The notes beneath the pieces were generated by a model. That model made no database searches. It was not told where the DNA came from and saw only the letters and a list, made by a program, of their open reading frames with translations. From IMG/VR virus record IMGVR_UViG_3300025809_000064, positions 1 to 33,373 of that record: a stretch of 33,373 nucleotides of DNA; one strand, given 5' to 3'. The DNA is from a virus. A program made the translations under genes and the position numbers. Position 1 is the stretch's first letter. Every line of letters begins with the position of its first letter. Positions 3,730 through 25,678 of this stretch are shown one piece after another.

Positions 3730-4376
3730 CTTATTTACAACTTGTACAAAGTGTACTAAGGCGACTAAGGGAAGACGATACAATTACGTCTGTATCGGAT
3801 AACAGCTATTCTAAGTTAATAGGAGAGTTTGTAAACGATGCTAAAAGGATTGTAGAGGACTCTTGGGATTGGTCTTCACTACGTACAACATTTACTATTA
3901 ACACAGTAGCTAATACATTTAGTTATCAGCTAACTGATTCGGATGTCAGCCTTAAAACATTGGATGTTATTAACGATACATCCAACTACTTTATGAGACC
4001 TGTGTCATCCCACTGGATGAATAATGCTTACTTAAACAGTGGTGTGCCTAATAGCTCACCTGTGTACTACTCTTGGAATGGTTTTAGTGAGACAGGGGAA
4101 GCTTTAATTGACCTATATCCTATACCTGACAAAGAGTATGTCATACGTGTTAATGCTGTGGATAAGAAAGCACCTATGGTTGCTGACAGTACTACCTTGT
4201 ATGTTCCTTCCAATCCTGTAATACATTATGCAGTAGCATTGGCTTCTAGGGAGCGAGGGGAAACTGGTGGTACATCCTCAGCGGAACTGTTTGCTATTGC
4301 AGATCAAACATTGGGTGACATGATTGCTCTTGATGTTGCAAGACAGGAAGAAGAAACTATTTGGAGACCAGTATAG
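3726..4376 (+). CDS. Head-tail adaptor / tail tubular protein A (T7 gp11-like)
   Basis: 216 residues beginning MTYLQLVQSVLRRLRED, with VNDAKRIVEDSWDWSSLRTT, a beta-rich middle (FTINTVANTFSYQL) and SNPVIHYAVALASRERGE near the end. This helix-strand-helix order, the W-rich segment after a nucleic-acid-like helix, the length and the position just before the nozzle gene all fit the gp11 family, which forms the ring joining portal and tail nozzle in podoviruses. The stop shares its last base with the GTG of the next gene (TAGTG), so the two are translationally coupled. Confidence 0.82.
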   Translation: MTYLQLVQSVLRRLREDDTITSVSDNSYSKLIGEFVNDAKRIVEDSWDWSSLRTTFTINTVANTFSYQLTDSDVSLKTLDVINDTSNYFMRPVSSHWMNNAYLNSGVPNSSPVYYSWNGFSETGEALIDLYPIPDKEYVIRVNAVDKKAPMVADSTTLYVPSNPVIHYAVALASRERGETGGTSSAELFAIADQTLGDMIALDVARQEEETIWRPV

Positions 4377-8566: not shown

Positions 8567-10830
8567 TGGTTAATCGTTTTGATAAATATAAAACTCCTGT
8601 CGATCAAGACGTAAAACCTCTTGATGATAACAACCGATTTGCTAAGTATATAAAAGACGCAGACAAGACAGAACAAGAAGTTCAAATAGAAAGCGGAGAA
8701 TGGTTAGAAACTGATAACTTTTCTACTGCTATGGCTTTTATGCAAGGTGTTTCCCTTGGTTGGTATGATGAGTATAGAGTAGGTATAACTGCTCTTGCTG
8801 AAAGTGCTTTTGGTGACGAAACATATCAACAAGCATACGACAGAAACAGGGCTGAATATGATGAAGTAGCTGAAAATTTTAAAAAAAGACAACCTGTTGT
8901 TAGTGCAGGTGCTGAAATAGCAGGTGCTGTTGTTAGTCCAGTGGCTAAAATAAAAACTGCTTCAACTCTTGGATCGTTAGTGGCAAGAGGGGCGGCAGAA
9001 GGTGGTATCTATGGAGCAGGAAGCGCAGAAAGCGTTGAAAAAATACCTTCAAAATTTGTTGAGGGTGCAGGTTTTGGAGCAATAGGTGGGGGCATCATAG
9101 GATCAGGCGGTTGGCTGTTAAAACGTAAAGTGGCCTCTCCTTTAGAAACAGACGGTGTTTTTACTCCAATCACGTTAGCCGCTCAAAAAGATAAGCCTTC
9201 TGAAGCATTGTTGCAGTCTTTTTACAGAGATGTTGTTGGCCCTAGTTTTGGTGGTAAAGGAGTTATACGAGGACAAGAGGAAGTTATAGTTGCTCCTTTA
9301 GCTTTAAAACAAGCCGAAAGAAAGAAAGAACTTAAAAACTTTATTAGGGCTTCTAAAGCTGAAGGCGCTGAAGCGTCTGCTCAGTTAAATAGAGCAGTGG
9401 CTGATATTAAAGAAACAGGTAAGATAAAAATAGCAGATGTAAAAACACAAGAAGAAATATCTAAAGAAGTTATTGGTGGCAGGTATGATAAATTCTTAGG
9501 TAAAGAAGGAGAGATTATTTCTCGTAAAACAGAGCAGTTAAAAAGAAACGTAGAAAATAACAATGATATGTTACGTTTAGCGGCTTTTGAAAGCTCACTG
9601 CCTGTTGGGATTAAGAAGTTAGACGTTTCAAACGTGTTAGAGTCTCCTACTCCTAACGTAGCTATGCATCGCCTTGAAAAACTCTGGCAAAAAGAAGGCT
9701 TCAGGTCTATTAAAGATATTTCTTTTAGGATAAAACCACAAGAGTTACTTACTCAAATAGAAAAAAAAGTAGCAGAGGACACTACGTTGTCTTTATTAGC
9801 AGGAAAGTCTAGTGTTCGCTCTTTGCTTGAAGACGGTTTATCAACTTTATCTGCAAAAAGAAATCCTAAGACAGGTAGAGTTAAAGGAGAAGATTTATCA
9901 GCAATTAGGAACTCTTTTGGTATGGCGGCTTCTAAAATGTCTGACGAAGGTGGACAAGCTGTTTTAATAAAAGGTCTCTATAGAGAAATACAAAATGTTA
10001 TAGATGAGAACATGAAAAAACAATTAAGCGGTAAGAGGTTGGCTTCTTTTGAAGCTGATTTATCTGGTTGGGCATCACAATCTGTTCTTAGAAATGCAGT
10101 AACTAAAGCTTCTACAAAAGCAGGGAGACAAGGTAGGTTTACTCCTGATGAGTGGATAACATCAATTAAAAGCAACTCTCCAAGACAAGCCAGAAGAGGA
10201 GAAGGGCCGCTAAGAGCAGAAGCGGAGCAGATAGCCGCCTTAACTGCAAAGCAAGAAGAAGCTGTTGTAACTAGTGCTAATGCTCTTTCTAAAAAGTTAG
10301 CAGTTAGAAGAACAAACGAAATAAAAAGAGTTAGAAACAAAGCAATCTCTGAGAAATCTGCTATATTAAAACAAACAGCTAGTCTTGAAAGAAATTTACG
10401 TAATAATCCAGAATTTGCTGAAAGAATAGCAAGAAACTTTAAGAGAGAAGACGAACTAACTGATGTTATTGAGTCTAGTAAGAAAGAGTTAGACGACATA
10501 TCTCGTTTAAGAACACCAGAAACTCCTACGTGGTTTCATCAAATGGCGGCTTCAGGTATTATAGGGACTTCTACAGGGGCTACTGGTTTAGCTACAGGAG
10601 GAGGGATGGCAGGAGCAGGAGCAGGTATGAGCGGTATTATAGGGACTGTAGCAACTGCTAAAGGTTTGGCTAGTCCCTCTGCCCAAAAGTTTTTAGCAGG
10701 TCAGACAGGACTTCAACAATCGGCTCAGAGAGGGTTAAAACAACAAATACCTATGACAGGTATGCAAGCTGTTGATGTCATTAAATCTTTTCCTAGAGCA
10801 GGTGTTGGAATGCTTAGCAGAGAAGAATAA
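8566..10830 (+). CDS. Large internal virion protein, T7 gp16-like position
   Basis: 754 residues and the largest gene in the window. The first 190 residues include Gly/Ala-rich stretches (SAGAEIAGAVVSPVAKI, GAGFGAIGGGIIGSGGWLL), the middle is long charged helix, and residues about 655-710 are a Gly/Ala/Met-rich hydrophobic stretch (MAASGIIGTSTGATGLATGG and following) that could insert in a membrane. In T7-like phages the last ejected core protein is the largest and carries membrane-active segments, sometimes with a lytic transglycosylase; no such catalytic motif is recognised here. A terminator follows directly. Confidence 0.65.
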   Translation: MVNRFDKYKTPVDQDVKPLDDNNRFAKYIKDADKTEQEVQIESGEWLETDNFSTAMAFMQGVSLGWYDEYRVGITALAESAFGDETYQQAYDRNRAEYDEVAENFKKRQPVVSAGAEIAGAVVSPVAKIKTASTLGSLVARGAAEGGIYGAGSAESVEKIPSKFVEGAGFGAIGGGIIGSGGWLLKRKVASPLETDGVFTPITLAAQKDKPSEALLQSFYRDVVGPSFGGKGVIRGQEEVIVAPLALKQAERKKELKNFIRASKAEGAEASAQLNRAVADIKETGKIKIADVKTQEEISKEVIGGRYDKFLGKEGEIISRKTEQLKRNVENNNDMLRLAAFESSLPVGIKKLDVSNVLESPTPNVAMHRLEKLWQKEGFRSIKDISFRIKPQELLTQIEKKVAEDTTLSLLAGKSSVRSLLEDGLSTLSAKRNPKTGRVKGEDLSAIRNSFGMAASKMSDEGGQAVLIKGLYREIQNVIDENMKKQLSGKRLASFEADLSGWASQSVLRNAVTKASTKAGRQGRFTPDEWITSIKSNSPRQARRGEGPLRAEAEQIAALTAKQEEAVVTSANALSKKLAVRRTNEIKRVRNKAISEKSAILKQTASLERNLRNNPEFAERIARNFKREDELTDVIESSKKELDDISRLRTPETPTWFHQMAASGIIGTSTGATGLATGGGMAGAGAGMSGIIGTVATAKGLASPSAQKFLAGQTGLQQSAQRGLKQQIPMTGMQAVDVIKSFPRAGVGMLSREE

Positions 10831-13939: not shown

Positions 13940-14807
13940 CTAGTATGATCTCCTGTACGTTAGGTTCCTTAACCACCTTACAGAGAAACTTAGGAGCGTA
14001 GGAATAATTGAATACTCTTAAGTCTGGGTAGCAATGTTTTTTGAATTGACAGTAGGAGCAACCAACGGAGAGTTTTAAGTTTCCTGACTTGCCATCGGGC
14101 AAAGGTTCGTAACAAAGTAACTCTGGTTCTGAAGACTTTACTAGCTTTTTTACATGACGTACTCTCTCTGCTATATCCTGAGACAGCGCATCGTAAACTC
14201 TAGCATCCTTATCATCCAAGTCGTACTTGAGGTAGGTCAGGTGTCCGTTGGCTTTGTCCATAGCTAACCATCCAAACTTCCTGTCTCCTTCTGAGTGAGC
14301 GTAGGCTTTGATCTGATCAATATAACCAAAGGGATCGTCAAAGGCAAGCGATCCATCCTTGAACTTCTTAAACCCATAACTGCTTGCTGACTTGACATCA
14401 GTAACAACACCGTCAATCTTGCAGTCCATGTGACCCACAATTCCTTCAACTTTACATACCTTCTGTTCGTCAGTTACACTATGTCCTGCCATGCGAGTAA
14501 GGAACAACAACATCTCCTCAATCAAGTGACCGTACATAAACTTTACATACGTGTGTGGTAAGATGTCCTCACCCTCAGTACCATTGACATGATTCCATAG
14601 GTACTTATCGGTGCGCCCAATGTTAGACAGACGTAACTTACGATTATCCTTACGCTTCTCCCTGCCAAACTCTGTACGCATAAGAGCCTTAACACCCTCA
14701 CCAAACTTGTCTATCTCTGCCTCAACGTCTACGGATGGATCAGCGTCCTTACTGACCATTAGATCGTAGATGTCTTGCACTAAGTTATCCGTTGTTTTAG
14801 TGTTCAT
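13923..14807 (-). CDS. PD-(D/E)XK superfamily exonuclease, Cas4/RecB-like
   Basis: 294 residues. The nuclease core is at GIVGHMDCKIDGVVTDVKSA: Asp128 and Asp137-x-Lys139. A cysteine cluster near residues 250-260 (VGCSYCQFKKHCYPD) resembles the C-terminal cluster of Cas4/AddB-like nucleases, which bind an iron-sulfur cluster, although the fourth ligand is uncertain (a Cys near 120 is a candidate). In T7-like phages this position is held by a 5'-3' exonuclease that removes primers and degrades host DNA; this enzyme may fill that job with a different fold. It lies between the GIY-YIG gene and endonuclease I, overlapping both. Confidence 0.85.
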   Translation of the reverse strand: MNTKTTDNLVQDIYDLMVSKDADPSVDVEAEIDKFGEGVKALMRTEFGREKRKDNRKLRLSNIGRTDKYLWNHVNGTEGEDILPHTYVKFMYGHLIEEMLLFLTRMAGHSVTDEQKVCKVEGIVGHMDCKIDGVVTDVKSASSYGFKKFKDGSLAFDDPFGYIDQIKAYAHSEGDRKFGWLAMDKANGHLTYLKYDLDDKDARVYDALSQDIAERVRHVKKLVKSSEPELLCYEPLPDGKSGNLKLSVGCSYCQFKKHCYPDLRVFNYSYAPKFLCKVVKEPNVQEIILDEEGF

Positions 14808-15285
14808 GGATCACTTCCAGTATTAGTTCATTAGCTACAGCGTGGGGTAACTTAAACCACTCATTAATGTTGTCACACTCTTTGGCTAACCTTACGTGTG
14901 CCGCAGATTCCGCAACTCTCCTATCGTTTACTTCATAGGAGTACAGTAAAGCGTAGTCCCTAAAAGGTGAGGACGTTTGATAATTCTTTAGCCTGTCATT
15001 GGAATCTACAGCCATCCCAACCTTCACCCACTCAGGCCAAGCTTTGTTATATATAACGTAAACTTCTCCCTGTGGGTTCGCCTCATAGTTTTCCAAGGAA
15101 CTAAAGGCCGCTTCCTCAAACCCTTTGTATCTCCCTGCTTTGTACAAAGGGTGGGTCTTCTTTATTTCCTTACCGTTAACCCACATACGTTTTGCATCGC
15201 GAGCCTTAACAGCGTCTGGATTATCTTTGTAATACCAAGGCTTATTAGTTTTAGGATTAATGCGTGTCTGCCCAACTATTTCCAA
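14797..15285 (-). CDS. GIY-YIG (T5orf172-type) nuclease-like protein, TTG start
   Basis: The start chosen is TTG at 15285, inside the 3' end of the polymerase gene, because AGGGGAG lies 7 bases upstream and residues before it read as an out-of-frame copy of polymerase sequence; this gives 162 residues. The GIY-YIG-like domain begins at GEVYVIYN (about 73-80), then EWVKVGMA (85-92), DRLKNYQT (R98), VAESAAHVRL (Glu126) and NEWFKL (141-146), as in the T5orf172 family. Such domains cut DNA, but in many phage members the substrate is unknown. The first 70 residues (INPKTNKPWYY, MWVNGKE) could bind DNA. It could be a domesticated homing-type enzyme. Confidence 0.8.
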   Translation of the reverse strand: MEIVGQTRINPKTNKPWYYKDNPDAVKARDAKRMWVNGKEIKKTHPLYKAGRYKGFEEAAFSSLENYEANPQGEVYVIYNKAWPEWVKVGMAVDSNDRLKNYQTSSPFRDYALLYSYEVNDRRVAESAAHVRLAKECDNINEWFKLPHAVANELILEVIHEH

Positions 15286-16990
15286 CTTTAAACTCCCCTG
15301 CAAGGGGGCAGTTGAGTTTGTAGTGAATTCCTGCGGCTTCGACACAGCTAGTAGCGAGTCCTCCGAAAACCTTTGCTTTCTCTTCTCTGACCTCTGTCTG
15401 GATTTCATCGTGTATGTTTCCTATAAAGTTATAGTCTATACCCCATAGTATAGCATATTCGTTAAGTAAGCACAACGCTTTTTTCATTACGATAGCACCT
15501 GCTGATTGCAACAGCGTATTTAGAGCCGCGTGTTCTGACCGTACATAGACCCTTCTTCCATCCAAGCCATAAACATAACCTCTTCCTGCCGCCAAGCTAA
15601 CTCGTTCTCGTAACTTTCCAAGAGATGGCGTATTTCTAAGGAACTTTTCCTTAAGACGTTTACCATCCTGTCTAGTTCCTCCAACGATACTTCCGATCTT
15701 GGCATCTCCGGCCCCATAAAGGAAAGCGTATATGAAAGTCTTTGCTTGATCTCTAGTTTCAAGGCCGCTAGCCAACTGATTTGCCGTGTGAATATCTCCT
15801 GTGAGAATTTCATTTGTATAGCCCTCGTCGTTCATGTAATGTGCAAGCATCCGTAACTCAAGACCACTTGCGTCCATACCTACAAGTTTGTAACCTTCCG
15901 GTACTGTCCATACGTCCCTGCACTCCTTACCGTACGGTGAGTAAACCGCAGGTACTTGACCCATGTTGGGACTAGAATGTGTCATGCGGCCCGTCACTGC
16001 ACCGTTAGAATTAACGTACCCGTGTACTCTACCGTCCTCCTTAACAGCCTCTAGCCAACTCTGTACCTGAGCCACACGCTTCTGTATCATAAGATACTCA
16101 GCTATCAAAGCGGCCTGTGGTATGCCCTTCACTGTACCTAGCACTGCCTCATCAACGATGGCCTGTCCTGTCTCAGTGAATTGCTTAGGTTTCCATCCAT
16201 AATACTGCAGGTGTCTACCTATCTGCTGTCGTGACCCTAGATTAAACACAGGGAAATCTATGCGGCTAAAAGGTGCTACTGCTGTTTGCCATTGCTCACC
16301 AAGGAACTTAAGCCCAACAACAGAGAGCGTACCGTCCTTCTTAATCTTGGGTGTAATCTGTTTGACAAATGTCGGTAACGGTGTGAAAACCTGATGCACT
16401 TCGTCTTCAAGGTCATTCTTCTTCTCCTTTAGTGTAGCCAGTAAATGATAAGCTTTCTCTTGGTCTAAAAGCCAACCTGTTTTAATTTGCTTTGAAATAA
16501 CACCCTGTACTTGATGCTCAAGATCAACACTTTCAGGCTTAAAATCCTTAAGTTCAAGAAGTAATCTCTGGTACACCAACGTATTAACTTTAACATCCTG
16601 TATACAATACTCCAACATATCATACGAAAAAACATCCCAAACATTATGATCTCCTTTAGGGTAATTAAGTACAGTACCCCAGTTATCTAAGGAATGACCA
16701 CCCTCTCTTGATGGATTAGCTAGTCGGGACATTACCAGTGTGTCAGTTATTTTACACTTGCTAAAGTCTGCCGCTAGCAGTTTCTCCAGTACAGGTATGT
16801 CATACCCTATAAGGTTGTGACCAATTAGTTCGCACTCGTCCTGTAGTTGTAACCAAGTTATAAATTCAGGTAATCTATCTCCTGACCAAGTAAGGGAATC
16901 ATCGTGTCCTCCTAGCTGTCGCACAACAATACACCACACGGTATCAGGGTCAAGCCCATTGGCTTCAATGTCAAGTACAAACTGTTTCAT
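15257..16990 (-). CDS. DNA polymerase, family A, T7-like, with proofreading exonuclease
   Basis: 577 residues. The 3'-5' exonuclease has Asp7-x-Glu9 (VLDIEANGL), Asp64 (LIGYDIPVL) and Asp132 (YCIQDVKV). Polymerase motif A is Asp373 (GMDASGLELR), motif B is RDQAKTFIYAFLYG with Lys417 and Tyr421, and motif C is HDE at 527-529. The protein ends GNSWADTH, aligning with the T7 ending. Tyr421 aligns with T7 Tyr526 (E. coli position 762), a state associated with fast polymerases of lytic phages. It is about 127 residues shorter than T7 polymerase; the spacing between exonuclease and motif A leaves little room for the thioredoxin-binding loop. Its ATG overlaps the primase stop (TAATG). Confidence 0.97.
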   Translation of the reverse strand: MKQFVLDIEANGLDPDTVWCIVVRQLGGHDDSLTWSGDRLPEFITWLQLQDECELIGHNLIGYDIPVLEKLLAADFSKCKITDTLVMSRLANPSREGGHSLDNWGTVLNYPKGDHNVWDVFSYDMLEYCIQDVKVNTLVYQRLLLELKDFKPESVDLEHQVQGVISKQIKTGWLLDQEKAYHLLATLKEKKNDLEDEVHQVFTPLPTFVKQITPKIKKDGTLSVVGLKFLGEQWQTAVAPFSRIDFPVFNLGSRQQIGRHLQYYGWKPKQFTETGQAIVDEAVLGTVKGIPQAALIAEYLMIQKRVAQVQSWLEAVKEDGRVHGYVNSNGAVTGRMTHSSPNMGQVPAVYSPYGKECRDVWTVPEGYKLVGMDASGLELRMLAHYMNDEGYTNEILTGDIHTANQLASGLETRDQAKTFIYAFLYGAGDAKIGSIVGGTRQDGKRLKEKFLRNTPSLGKLRERVSLAAGRGYVYGLDGRRVYVRSEHAALNTLLQSAGAIVMKKALCLLNEYAILWGIDYNFIGNIHDEIQTEVREEKAKVFGGLATSCVEAAGIHYKLNCPLAGEFKVGNSWADTH

Positions 16991-18606
16991 TAAAACTCCG
17001 ATTCATCGCCCATTGGACAGCTTGTCTCCACCATCCTTCCTGAGTCCTTGTCATAATAAAGGTAGCAAGCAGGGCCAGTGAGTCCAACAAATCTGTTCTT
17101 GAGTACACGAACTGTTGTAGTGTTCCGTGTCTCAGGGTCAGCGTGTTGTTGATCTCGTTCAAGTCCAATAACAATGTCGCTAAGTTGCGCGATTGCCGCT
17201 GAACCTCTGAGTTCTCCCAAGCTTATCCTACCACCATCTTCATGTGCCTTTGATCCGCTAGGTCTACGCAGGTGTGATACTAGGAATAGCCCTACACCTG
17301 TCTCCTGTACTAGCTTTCTAAGGTTAGTCATAATACTATCAATAGCCTTACGCTCGTCACCGTTGTCCTGATCACTGACCACGATACTCAGGTGGTCAAG
17401 GATGATCCACTTGCAGTCCAAGCCCTTAGCCATGTAACGTATGCGGCCTAACAGATTGTCCTCGCTAGTCGAACCCCAGTGATCAAACAGAAAGATACGT
17501 CCTGTACCTAGCGTCCTGTCCCAGTAGCCTTTCTTCTCTTCCTTGCTGATAGTCTTGTCTAGGTGTAACTGCTTGTTGGCCTCTATGGACATGATGCCCA
17601 ACGCTGTCTTGGGGATGTCCTCCTCCAAGGCTAGGATACCAATGTTGTCCTCAGTAGCGCCTAGCAGGTAATGCTCAAGTTCTCTGACAATCTGAGACTT
17701 ACCCATGCCTGAGCCTGACGTAATGGTGACTAGTTCCTTCCTGCGGAAACCGTGGGTCATCTCATTGAGACAATTCCAAGGATACAGGATAGACTTAACA
17801 TCGGCCTGTTCCATGATCATGTCCCAAGTGTCACTGCCTGACACAATACCGTCGGGTTGATATGTCTTAGCGTTCCACCACTCCTTAACAAAACCAGTGA
17901 CCTTGTTAGCCTTGAGCATCTCCCCTGCATCCTTCATAGGCAAGGTGACATTCTTGGCCTTGTTGGGGGTGAATAAATCAAGTACAGCTTTGGATGCCTC
18001 CTGTCCTGCCTTGTCATTGTCAAAACAAATGACTACGTTCTCAAAGGATTCTAACCACTCAAGGTTTTCTTTAATGTCCTTTGATGCTCCGCTTGCGCCA
18101 CTTCTAATGGAGACAACGGGCCATTTCCCGTCGAACATTTCGTGAACGGCAAGTGCGTCTGCCTCGCCCTCTGTGATCGTAATGTACTTACCGCCACCCT
18201 TGAAAGCTTGTTGACCGAACAACCCAACATTGCCGAACTCCCCTGTTGCATAAAAACTCTTGTTGTCCACAATGCGAACCTTAGTGCCCGTAGGTGTACC
18301 TGAGTCCTTATCGTGGTATGGATAATGATGCTTGACAATTTGCCCCTGAGCATTGTACTCAACCGTTACGCCATACTTTTGTGCTATGGCTTGGCTGATA
18401 CGCCTGTCAGGGATTGCCGCTACTACTCCTGTCATCTCTAATCGCCTCGTTATACTTGGTGTTACGTTTACAACCTGACCCGTACCTCTCTCGTAGTGGT
18501 CACAACCGCCTGTAAAACAAACGGCGTGACCATCGGAGTACCTTGCTAGGTTGTTCTTAGAGCCACACGAAGGGCATGGCTCATGTTTAACAAAGGTAGA
18601 CGACAC
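16990..18606 (-). CDS. Primase-helicase (T7 gp4-like), GTG start
   Basis: 538 residues from a GTG with GGGGAG 8 bases upstream. The zinc-binding site is Cys11, 14, 30, 35; the TOPRIM core is TEGEADA with Glu146 and FDNDKAG with Asp196/198; the RecA-like helicase has Walker A at 297-304 (SGSGMGKS), LEEDIP, the Walker B-like WIILDHLSIVV, SHLRRPSG and the arginine-bearing LKNRFVGLTG. It both makes primers and unwinds DNA ahead of the polymerase. The acidic ending GDESEF with terminal Phe resembles the T7 gp4 tail that docks on the polymerase. It lies in the coupled order SSB, primase-helicase, polymerase. Confidence 0.97.
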   Translation of the reverse strand: MSSTFVKHEPCPSCGSKNNLARYSDGHAVCFTGGCDHYERGTGQVVNVTPSITRRLEMTGVVAAIPDRRISQAIAQKYGVTVEYNAQGQIVKHHYPYHDKDSGTPTGTKVRIVDNKSFYATGEFGNVGLFGQQAFKGGGKYITITEGEADALAVHEMFDGKWPVVSIRSGASGASKDIKENLEWLESFENVVICFDNDKAGQEASKAVLDLFTPNKAKNVTLPMKDAGEMLKANKVTGFVKEWWNAKTYQPDGIVSGSDTWDMIMEQADVKSILYPWNCLNEMTHGFRRKELVTITSGSGMGKSQIVRELEHYLLGATEDNIGILALEEDIPKTALGIMSIEANKQLHLDKTISKEEKKGYWDRTLGTGRIFLFDHWGSTSEDNLLGRIRYMAKGLDCKWIILDHLSIVVSDQDNGDERKAIDSIMTNLRKLVQETGVGLFLVSHLRRPSGSKAHEDGGRISLGELRGSAAIAQLSDIVIGLERDQQHADPETRNTTTVRVLKNRFVGLTGPACYLYYDKDSGRMVETSCPMGDESEF

Positions 18607-22806: not shown

Positions 22807-23080
22807 GCGAATGGGTAGTAGCTTACTAATGATTTAAATGCATGACCTATTAAAACTATATGCATCTAGCGCATGACATCTGGGGCCATGTTCTACCTTT
22901 ATATATGCGCGTGTACGCGTAGCAATAATCATGCCAACTATTGAAAGATCAACAATAAACTTCTTTTGATACTAGGGCATAGGCTAAGGACAAACACGCT
23001 TACAACGTAATAGAGAGCCATCTATAAACATAATATAAACTTATGACTACTTGGCATGGTGTTTGCATATGGCTTCGTAG

Positions 23081-23262
23081 GTATCCACAAGCATACTCAC
23101 TCTTCACTTGTCAAACATAAGCTCGACCCAATGGCGGCCCTTGGTCACCCATGCAATACCCGTGCCAACTTGTGGCCCTGTGGATAACTTGTGTACTACC
23201 TGTGGATAACTTATGCACAGGCCGTGGATACTGTGGATAACTCATGTATAACCTGTGGATAA
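23081..23262. other. DnaA-box cluster, probable replication origin
   Basis: Perfect DnaA boxes (TTATCCACA, read on the minus strand) lie at 23179-23187, 23201-23209, 23232-23240 and 23254-23262, with a 7/9 box at 23223-23231. Starts are 22, 22, 9 and 22 bases apart. An opposite-strand 8/9 box (GTATCCACA) is at 23081-23089. Downstream is a G-rich stretch (23268-23286) and then AT-rich DNA. The rest of 22730-23080 shows no gene and nothing else recognisable. The cluster resembles a bacterial or plasmid oriC and suggests that host DnaA opens this origin. Confidence 0.78.
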
Positions 23263-23345
23263 CTTTAGGGGGCGGGGGGCCGTGGGTTATCGCAAGATTG
23301 TTACAGTACCCACTGGTATACAAAAAAGGTGAAATTAAGAAAAAA

Positions 23346-23370
23346 GGGAGGTATACATATGTATCCGTAA
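23346..23370 (+). other. Strong ribosome site before a 3-codon ORF, on a palindrome
   Basis: GGGAGG (23346-23351) is 7 bases before ATG at 23359, which reads Met-Tyr-Pro-stop. The start codon sits in a perfect 12-bp palindrome, ATACATATGTAT (23353-23364). It could be a minigene, an operator, or the remains of a deleted gene. Confidence 0.4.
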
Positions 23371-23469
23371 GTCATTGATTTACATAAGGAAACACAGGTT
23401 CGCCCTTTGGGGTTGACATCTGTGTATAAAGGGCAACATAAGTTGACACACAAGGGGCCTAGTTGGTCA

Positions 23470-23492
23470 TAAATAGTTAGTAAATAGTTAAA
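23470..23492. repeat. AT-rich direct repeats, candidate DNA-unwinding element
   Basis: AAATAGTTA occurs twice, 11 bases apart, in a very AT-rich stretch about 210 bases from the last DnaA box. Origins with DnaA boxes usually have such AT-rich repeats beside them as the melting site. The element lies just upstream of the terminase promoter, so transcription could help opening. Confidence 0.5.
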
Positions 23493-23499
23493 ATAAAGC

Positions 23500-23528
23500 T
23501 TGACTTTTAGACCAATACGTGCTATAAT
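23500..23528 (+). promoter_or_regulatory. Strong sigma-70 promoter for the rightward packaging block
   Basis: TTGACT (23500-23505), 17-base spacer, TATAAT (23523-23528). Transcription would start near 23535 and run into the terminase small subunit. Two more TTGACA boxes lie upstream (23413, 23443) but lack good -10 partners. GCCCTTT/AAAGGGC arms (23402-23408, 23428-23434) bracket the first of them. Confidence 0.85.
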
Positions 23529-23565
23529 ATTTAATATAGTAAAGTAAAGAAAAACAAGGATCGCC

Positions 23566-23651
23566 CTTAAGTATCCTTAAGTAAGCTTTAAGTATTTTAT
23601 TAATTTTAAAATTAAAGAATATAGTAAAGTTTACTTAAGTATCCTTAAGTA
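23566..23651 (+). promoter_or_regulatory. Symmetrical repeat array in the terminase leader
   Basis: CTTAAGTATCCTTAAGTA occurs exactly at 23566-23583 and 23634-23651. A perfect 16-bp palindrome, TTAATTTTAAAATTAA (23600-23615), sits midway. Each 18-mer holds two CTTAAG palindromes 10 bases apart, one helical turn. The second copy begins a small hairpin, CCTTA (23643-23647) with TAAGG (23654-23658), whose right arm contains the ribosome site AAGGGG of the next gene. Confidence 0.7.
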
Positions 23652-23667
23652 CATAAGGGGAAATACC

Positions 23668-24072
23668 TTGAGTGAAGTAAAAGTAGAGTCAGCCCCATCC
23701 GCGAAGCGGAAAGGCCGCCCTAGGAAGTCAGATGTTGTGTCAAGAAAGAAAGGCACTACTGGTTTGTCTAGAGGTAGGCCGAAGGGTGATGCGGCAATCA
23801 TCAACGAGTATAAAAGTCGGATGTTGACATCCCCTAAGTCTCGTAAGGTGTTAGAGTCAATCTTTGATGCGGCCCTAAACGATGATCATAAGAATCAAGC
23901 CGCGGCATGGAAGTTAGTTATGGATCGAATCCTCCCTACTGCTGTCTTTGAAAAGGATGTAGTCAAAGGAGCAGGTAGGTCAGCCATACAGATCAATATT
24001 ACAGGCGTTGGCGGTGAGACTACCGTGGTGTCGGGTGATAATGATATAGAAGGAGAGTATATAGATGGCTAA
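23668..24072 (+). CDS. Terminase small subunit-like DNA-binding protein, TTG start
   Basis: 134 residues from TTG at 23668, with AAGGGG 7 bases upstream. The N-terminal 40 residues are basic and hold two AT-hook cores: KRKGRPRK (GRP at 16-18) and SRGRPKG (36-38). Then a helical segment (YKSRMLTSPKSRKVLESIFD; NQAAAWKLVMDRILPTAVF) and a Gly-rich acidic end. This matches small terminase proteins of marine podoviruses by position two genes before the large subunit, and by the ILP-A-FEK motif. It would recognise phage DNA for packaging. AT-hooks may bind the AT-rich array just upstream. Confidence 0.72.
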   Translation: MSEVKVESAPSAKRKGRPRKSDVVSRKKGTTGLSRGRPKGDAAIINEYKSRMLTSPKSRKVLESIFDAALNDDHKNQAAAWKLVMDRILPTAVFEKDVVKGAGRSAIQINITGVGGETTVVSGDNDIEGEYIDG

Positions 24073-24424: not shown

Positions 24425-25678
24425 TTGACTGAGCTTAATGTATCGCTACTCCCGTGGCAACAAAAAGTCTTTAATGATAAAACAAGATTTAAAGTAATAG
24501 CGGCAGGTAGACGTACAGGTAAAAGTAGATTAGCCGCTTGGATGCTAATCATTAGAGCCTTGCAAGCTGAACGTGGACATGTGTTCTACGTTGCCCCTAC
24601 ACAAGGACAGGCTAGGGACATTATGTGGCAAGTCTTGCTAGAGATAGGTCATCCTGTTATAGCAACTAGTCATGTAAATAACTTACAAATAAAATTAGTT
24701 AACGGTGCAACCATAGCCCTTAAAGGTGCTGATAGGCCGGAAACCATGCGTGGTGTCAGTCTTAGGTTCTTGGTTATGGATGAGTACGCTGACATGAAGC
24801 CTGAGGTATGGGAGCAGATACTGAGACCTGCCTTGGCTGACCAAAAGGGTGACGCATTATTCATTGGTACGCCAATGGGTAGAAATCACTTTTATGATTT
24901 ATATACATACGCTTGTGTGTCGGATGATCCTACTTTTGTAGGTTATCACTTCACAAGCTACGATAACCCATTGCTAGACCCTGAGGAAATAGAAGCGGCT
25001 AAGAAATCCATGTCGGCCTTTTCCTTTCGTCAGGAGTTCATGGCATCCTTTGAGGCCCAAGGTAGTGAATTATTCAAAGAAGAGTTTATTAAATTTTCTG
25101 AGGAAGAGCCTGAACAAGGTCAGTTTTACATTGCGGTTGACTTGGCGGGTTTTGCGGATGTCGCTAAAGTTACAACGAAGACAAAAAGACTTGACCAAAC
25201 GGCTATCTCTATTGTTAAAGCAAACGAAGAAGGTTGGTGGGTTGCTAATATTGTACATGGGCGTTGGGGCGTCCAAGAGACTGCCAGAAGAATCTTCCAA
25301 GCAGTCAGAGACTACCAACCAGTAGCCGTAGGTATAGAGAAAGGAGCACTAAAGAACGCTGTCCTTCCATACTTAAGTGACTACATGAAGAAGAATCAAC
25401 GCTTCTTTAGGGTGGATGAGCTTACCCACGGTAATAAAAAGAAAACTGACAGGATTGTTTGGGCTTTACAAGGTAGATTTGAACACGGTACAATTTCCTT
25501 GAATAAAGGAGAATGGAATAGTCAGTTCCTTGATGAGTTATTTCAGTTCCCTAACCAATTAGTTCACGATGATTTAATTGATTCTTTGGCTTACATAGAC
25601 CAATTAGCTAACATAGCGTACACATCGGACTTTGAGGAAGAAGAATATCAACTATTAGACGCATACGCAGGGTATTAA
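24425..25678 (+). CDS. terL: Terminase large subunit
   Basis: 417 residues. Packaging ATPase: Walker A AGRRTGKS (27-34) and Walker B FLVMDEYADM; nuclease: VDLAGFADV (Asp), GIEKGALKNAVL (Glu) and HDDLIDSLAY (Asp). It pumps DNA into the prohead and cuts the concatemer. The start is TTG directly after the endolysin stop; no ribosome site is obvious, and no other start precedes Walker A, so it is probably translated by re-initiation. Shorter than T7 gp19 (586 residues) but complete in motifs. Confidence 0.95.
   Translation: MTELNVSLLPWQQKVFNDKTRFKVIAAGRRTGKSRLAAWMLIIRALQAERGHVFYVAPTQGQARDIMWQVLLEIGHPVIATSHVNNLQIKLVNGATIALKGADRPETMRGVSLRFLVMDEYADMKPEVWEQILRPALADQKGDALFIGTPMGRNHFYDLYTYACVSDDPTFVGYHFTSYDNPLLDPEEIEAAKKSMSAFSFRQEFMASFEAQGSELFKEEFIKFSEEEPEQGQFYIAVDLAGFADVAKVTTKTKRLDQTAISIVKANEEGWWVANIVHGRWGVQETARRIFQAVRDYQPVAVGIEKGALKNAVLPYLSDYMKKNQRFFRVDELTHGNKKKTDRIVWALQGRFEHGTISLNKGEWNSQFLDELFQFPNQLVHDDLIDSLAYIDQLANIAYTSDFEEEEYQLLDAYAGY

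Follow-up and report, generated by a model that had tools for sequence, protein, structure and literature searches.

DnaA is best known as the starter of bacterial chromosomes, and duplication of the terminal repeat is a long-unsolved step in T7-type packaging. A close parallel to the locus described here is provided by the cobaviruses, RNA-polymerase-less members of the T7 supergroup, whose terminal repeats of 159-173 bp have been determined experimentally, and by SIO1, in which a similar sequence lies where an ORF-free region separates two gene modules (PMC6775973). In phage T5, the injection-stop signal in the terminal repeat has been described as containing DnaA boxes, for which a role has been proposed (PMC13250531). 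Inspection of the left terminal repeat of T5 revealed one exact box and three boxes with one mismatch at 9358-9439; compared with the locus considered here, T5 differs in its 10-kb repeat, in having few and mostly imperfect boxes, and in the presence of palindromes and other repeats.

Terminal repeats, and DnaA boxes within the T5 repeat, are thus already known. For dense, phased DnaA box arrays in the terminal repeats of a marine phage family and of T7-like phages, no earlier description was found in open-access papers, and the same holds for DnaA boxes of any kind in T7-like terminal repeats. The sequence analyzed here (the window) is an IMG/VR virus contig of 33,373 bases from an uncultured marine phage.

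Genomic setting and gene content

The array is located in an ORF-poor, non-coding gap of approximately 800 bp (22866-23667), the largest in the window, which separates two divergent gene blocks. The left block comprises small genes, a GP88-type gene, a primase-helicase, a polymerase, a Cas4-type exonuclease, ribonucleotide reductase and a small putative ssDNA-binding protein, and the right block contains a TerS-like gene, an M15 peptidase, TerL, portal, capsid and tail genes. The main features of this setting are as follows:

15257-16990, minus strand: family A DNA polymerase
16990-18606, minus strand: T7-type primase-helicase
23440-23660, no strand: AT-rich stretch (27% GC) with TTAAGTATCCTTAAGTA repeats, outside the predicted terminal repeat
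23500-23528, plus strand: sigma-70-like promoter TTGACT-17-TATAAT (11/12), before the TerS-like gene
23668-24072, plus strand: TerS-like gene, named so from its position alone; small, with a basic N terminus, and immediately preceding TerL
24425-25678, plus strand: terminase large subunit (TerL)

The primase-helicase and the polymerase match phrog_239 (3.6e-187) and phrog_17 (1.5e-150), respectively, which places the replisome with that of T7. The portal and capsid differ, matching SU10/P22-type and Phage_capsid_2 models, so that the original description of a T7-like phage applies to the replisome and not to the virion proteins; the T7-type character of the window is limited to the former. As had been noted for the window, no T7-like RNA polymerase was detected there, and the same holds for six long relatives; the single-subunit RNA polymerase characteristic of Autographiviridae (PF00940) is absent from G000-G006.

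Several further observations concern the same contig. Copies of CTTAAGTATCCTTAAGTA are found between the promoter and the TerS-like gene (23566-23583 and 23634-23651), and in relatives no words of this region are repeated more often than the related 9-mers ACTTAAGTA/ATACTTAAG, which rank above the DnaA box and occur in at least two copies in 23 of 37 clusters. A GIY-YIG/homing-endonuclease-like ORF (14797-15408) extends, in a different frame, into the end of the DNA polymerase gene. A search of binned genome contigs for host assignment yielded no more than four stray contigs, which belong to bins from different phyla.

The DnaA box array and its conservation

Four exact DnaA boxes, all reading TTATCCACA on the minus strand, lie at 23179-23262 with spacings of 22, 31 and 22 bp. 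When a degenerate copy at 23223-23231 is counted, the grid becomes 22, 22, 9 and 22 bp; this arrangement of four exact boxes and one degenerate box in a single orientation, with one 9-bp offset, had been predicted from the sequence, and its positions were confirmed:

23179-23187, minus strand: DnaA box 1, exact TTATCCACA
23201-23209, minus strand: DnaA box 2, exact; 22 bp from box 1
23211-23219, plus strand: TTATGCACA, an oppositely oriented box with one mismatch, shared by close relatives
23223-23231, minus strand: degenerate copy CGTGGATAC, two mismatches, on the 22-bp grid
23232-23240, minus strand: DnaA box 3, exact
23254-23262, minus strand: DnaA box 4, exact

Beyond the array, the whole 33-kb window contains a single further exact box, at 4157. 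The whole-genome 9-mer search proposed with the original prediction gave 16 boxes with at most one mismatch against 8.95 expected, a number that was reached in no shuffle.

To place the array among related phages, 80 relatives were retrieved by a TerL search and clustered to 37 distinct regions for box counts. Many of these relatives carry boxes approximately 1.0-1.4 kb before TerL. The 37 regions contain 38 exact boxes, compared with 0.35 in shuffles, and the density of exact boxes is 1.0 per kb within the region versus 0.014 per kb outside it; two or more copies are present in 10 of the clusters. Since relatives conserve the boxes, a chance origin of the array is excluded. A pattern scan for three tandem boxes in an unselected slice of IMG/VR yielded at least 120 stretches, of which 118 were examined; among the 118 three-box arrays listed, 35 belong to the TerS-TerL family of the window, with TerL identities down to 52%. 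Relatives still have an array ahead of TerS where TerL identity has dropped to about 52-60%. Box spacings peak at 11, 22 and 33 bp, with a period of 10.6 bp (vector length 0.67), which would be expected if adjacent DnaA molecules touch on one face of the helix. The proposed comparison of spacing with relatives therefore bears out an array kept at the same place and phased at about 10.6 bp. Judging from the exact consensus, the conservation and this helical phasing, the array is very probably bound by host DnaA.

The array varies in form. A fixed orientation of the boxes relative to TerS was considered and discarded, since the box block is inverted in L117, L130, L089, L144, L147 and L193 with the orientation of the adjoining core unchanged. 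It also expands and contracts, since L060 (five boxes) and the near-identical L061/L062 (three boxes) differ by a 61-bp unit of the array. L226 (G041; 1765-1861) has a further cluster of three DnaA boxes, some 1.9 kb ahead of its terminal repeat, and second arrays are also present in L117 and L130. In the gap of the window, another repeat, GCAATA..C.TGCCAACT, occurs at 22922-22939 and 23153-23170; its copy number is higher in relatives such as L006.

Predicted terminal repeat and terminase cut site

The array is flanked by conserved elements on both sides:

23307-23327, minus strand: cut-side motif CTTTTTTGTAT followed by ACCAGTGGGTA; terminase cut predicted between 23307 and 23306
23268-23279, minus strand: C-run (GGGGGCGGGGGG on the plus strand), beginning 28 nt in from the predicted genome end
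23090-23306, minus strand: predicted direct terminal repeat of 217 bp, as judged from relatives; left genome end at 23306, reading leftwards
23080-23100, plus strand: far-edge motif GGTATCC..NAGCATACTCAC, including the 8/9 box at 23081

On the TerS side, a core is recognizable on the minus strand that consists of CTTTTTTGTAT, 11 nt ending in GGGTA, approximately 27 nt, the C-run and the array, and it is also conserved in relatives without boxes. The C-run lies 24-31 nt inside the predicted end in nearly all relatives, and the first C-run falls at nt 15-40 in 38 of 43 relatives, compared with 8% in shuffles. On the far side of the array, a second conserved motif, GTGAGTATGC...GGATACC, follows at a distance that varies (125-220 nt), and the array is invariably flanked by the cut-side and far-edge motifs. 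An opposite-orientation box with 8 of 9 matches had originally been assigned to the array at 23081; this apparent box is explained by the conserved far-edge motif at 23080-23100, at which relatives have GTATCCTAT or GTATCCACT, and the motif marks the far edge of the predicted terminal repeat.

The ends of related contigs locate the genome end. IMGVR_3300050343_000022 (G041), a near-complete contig of 36,338 bp, carries at its ends an exact direct repeat of 221 bp that contains the whole array, here with seven boxes, and stops directly after CTTTTTTGTGT-N11. IMGVR_3300046168_000002 (G068; 36,208 bp), which has no boxes, has an imperfect end repeat of 138 bp (94%) that stops at the same offset. 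L371, a box-containing member of the window's subfamily, starts with ACTGTAACAATC where CTGTAACAATC was predicted, one nucleotide off. Three TerL-side contigs from different samples (L273, L275 and L276) share an identical start base, and contig L050 starts at the equivalent of position 23090 of the window, at the far-edge motif. The window contig itself has no end repeats, being permuted and running through the site, and ten array contigs from outside the family yielded no informative end repeats. An identical repeat at both ends is therefore seen in G041, approximately so in G068, and is predicted for the window. A cos site had been considered, since a G-tract precedes TerS, and was rejected because contig ends do not cluster there and relatives show end repeats.

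Taken together, it can be regarded as nearly established that the array region is a terminal repeat, and thus a concatemer junction, and the core beside it is the predicted terminase cut site. In G041, G068 and L371 (within 1 nt), the cut follows CTTTTTTGTRT-N11; together with the C-run that follows after a further 28 nt or so, this pattern provides an in silico rule for locating the genome ends of a large family of uncultured marine phages.

Comparison with cultured T7-like phages

A DNA search with the array led to cultured T7-like phages. Like the window, the Berlinvirus phages A7 and P483, the Eapunavirus phiEap-1, and Kp7 carry tandem DnaA boxes of one orientation in the terminal repeat. 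Exact boxes fall within this repeat in 8 of 8 cases in Shigella phage A7 (repeat of 177 bp), 10 of 11 in phiEap-1 (195 bp) and 10 of 11 in Klebsiella phage Kp7 (238 bp), and the spacings in phiEap-1 are 21, 22, 30 and 22 bp. A7, phiEap-1 and Kp7 also share a similar order, namely the TerL side, the cut, approximately 25 nt, a C-run, the boxes and the early genes. Unlike the window family, these cultured phages encode an RNA polymerase, have T7-type virions and infect enterobacteria.

The sequences on the cut side are alike in A7 (ATCTGAGTGGGTA, then the cut), T7 (ATCTGAGTGACTA, then the cut) and L165, a relative of the window (ATCTGAGCGGGTA, then the cut). Given the similar order and cut-side sequences in cultured T7-like phages, the genome end of the window is predicted at 23306/23307. 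A C-run is found 21-31 nt inside the end in T7, SP6, K1F, A7, phiEap-1, Kp7, ICBM1 and VpV262 (21-28 nt in SP6, K1F, ICBM1 and VpV262). No DnaA boxes were found in the ends of T7, SP6, K1F, ICBM1 and VpV262, which likewise have a short repeat at the genome end; T7 carries there its own array of short repeats, CCTAAAG, instead of DnaA boxes. TerS and TerL are transcribed away from the junction in the window and toward it in T7.

Proposed function and alternative explanations

With moderate confidence, the locus is interpreted as a landing platform for host DnaA in the direct terminal repeat, just inside the cut site, that aids end processing. DnaA would assemble on the tandem boxes where two genomes join and help to open and process this junction, allowing the single repeat copy to be duplicated and the ends to be cut for packaging. 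The array tracks the genome end and not the mode of initiation, and a role at the end is therefore favored, either in duplicating the repeat or in processing at the concatemer junction. The more specific proposal that DnaA acts as a host factor of the genome end and not as a replacement origin is put forward tentatively; we know of no phage in which DnaA has been linked to packaging or repeat duplication by experiment.

The original prediction was a DnaA-directed origin, with conserved and phased boxes, a T7-type replisome and no phage RNA polymerase. These components were all recovered; the origin role was not. According to this explanation, DnaA opens the terminal repeat, which is internal on circular or concatemeric DNA, and a self-loading T7-type helicase and polymerase follow. 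Although unlikely, it draws support from the phased tandem array of consensus boxes, which forms a cluster of the oriC kind, the absence of a phage RNA polymerase, the location in the largest non-coding gap between divergent gene blocks, and the nearby stretch of 27% GC. In the skew check that had been proposed, the cumulative GC-skew minimum falls at 22.5-23.5 kb, but it coincides with the change of gene direction, and skew was therefore set aside as independent evidence of an origin.

Other observations argue against an origin. The array lies within the repeated genome end next to the predicted cut, and is therefore not by itself evidence of an origin that replaces priming by RNA polymerase. 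Similar arrays occur at the same place in A7, phiEap-1 and Kp7, which encode the polymerase that such an origin was supposed to replace. Conversely, the RNA-polymerase-less relatives G002, G003, G004 and G006 have the same replisome without any exact box, which argues against an essential DnaA origin and against a need for one wherever the phage RNA polymerase is absent. The window shares tandem consensus DnaA boxes with bacterial oriC regions that have a basal unwinding system, in which DnaA-trios lie within 16 bp of a box (PMC8287927). However, a DnaA-trio or basal unwinding element was sought beside the window boxes and rejected: no trio is present within 16 bp of any exact box, and there is no adjacent AT-rich element, the repeat being 50% GC and the AT-rich stretch starting approximately 180 bp away, past the cut.

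A serious rival, although an improbable one, is an entry or end signal, in which DnaA bound to the leading terminal repeat would halt or anchor incoming DNA, as proposed for T5. The DnaA boxes described in the T5 injection-stop signal (PMC13250531), and those found here in T5, are in line with such a function, and the array of the window would sit on the early-gene, probably leading, end. Against it, the array occupies the first ~200 bp, compared with a stop about 9 kb in for T5, and the trailing end has a copy as well. Titration, by which the array would sequester host DnaA and stop initiation on the host chromosome as phage copies build up, is highly improbable: it would fit the several perfect boxes per genome and the varying box number of L060 and L061/L062, but leaves the confinement to the terminal repeat beside the cut site unexplained. 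Least probable of all is binding of a phage protein such as TerS with an incidental match to the DnaA consensus. The array does adjoin TerS, as repeated binding sites do in cos phages, but phages that are unrelated and have different terminases share the exact DnaA 9-mer, and the box block changes orientation where the core does not.

As for the favored platform at the genome end, many relatives lack boxes, so that DnaA must be dispensable or replaceable. The box-less relatives L016, L020, L048 and L071 (also L273 and L258) carry other short repeats within the predicted terminal repeat, and these, together with CCTAAAG in T7, suggest that DnaA is one of several solutions. A more far-reaching suggestion, which should be considered speculative, is that DnaA boxes were placed independently in the terminal repeats of unrelated phages (the marine family, several T7-like genera and T5) because DnaA both opens the concatemer junction and initiates the local DNA synthesis through which the repeat is duplicated before packaging. 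If true, perfect phased arrays in the terminal repeats of unrelated phages would point to a role of DnaA at viral genome ends, with a bearing on terminal-repeat duplication and on how replication starts in RNA-polymerase-less phages of the T7 supergroup. Since cultured T7-like phages carry a similar array, these proposals are testable now.

Tandem repeats of related interest were also observed elsewhere. Contig L296 has tandem copies of AGAGTAACCTACGTAAAATCATT at its start, and tandem DnaA-box-like sequences are present in the small ssDNA Microviridae MK496754 (H71) and PQ006958 (H80).
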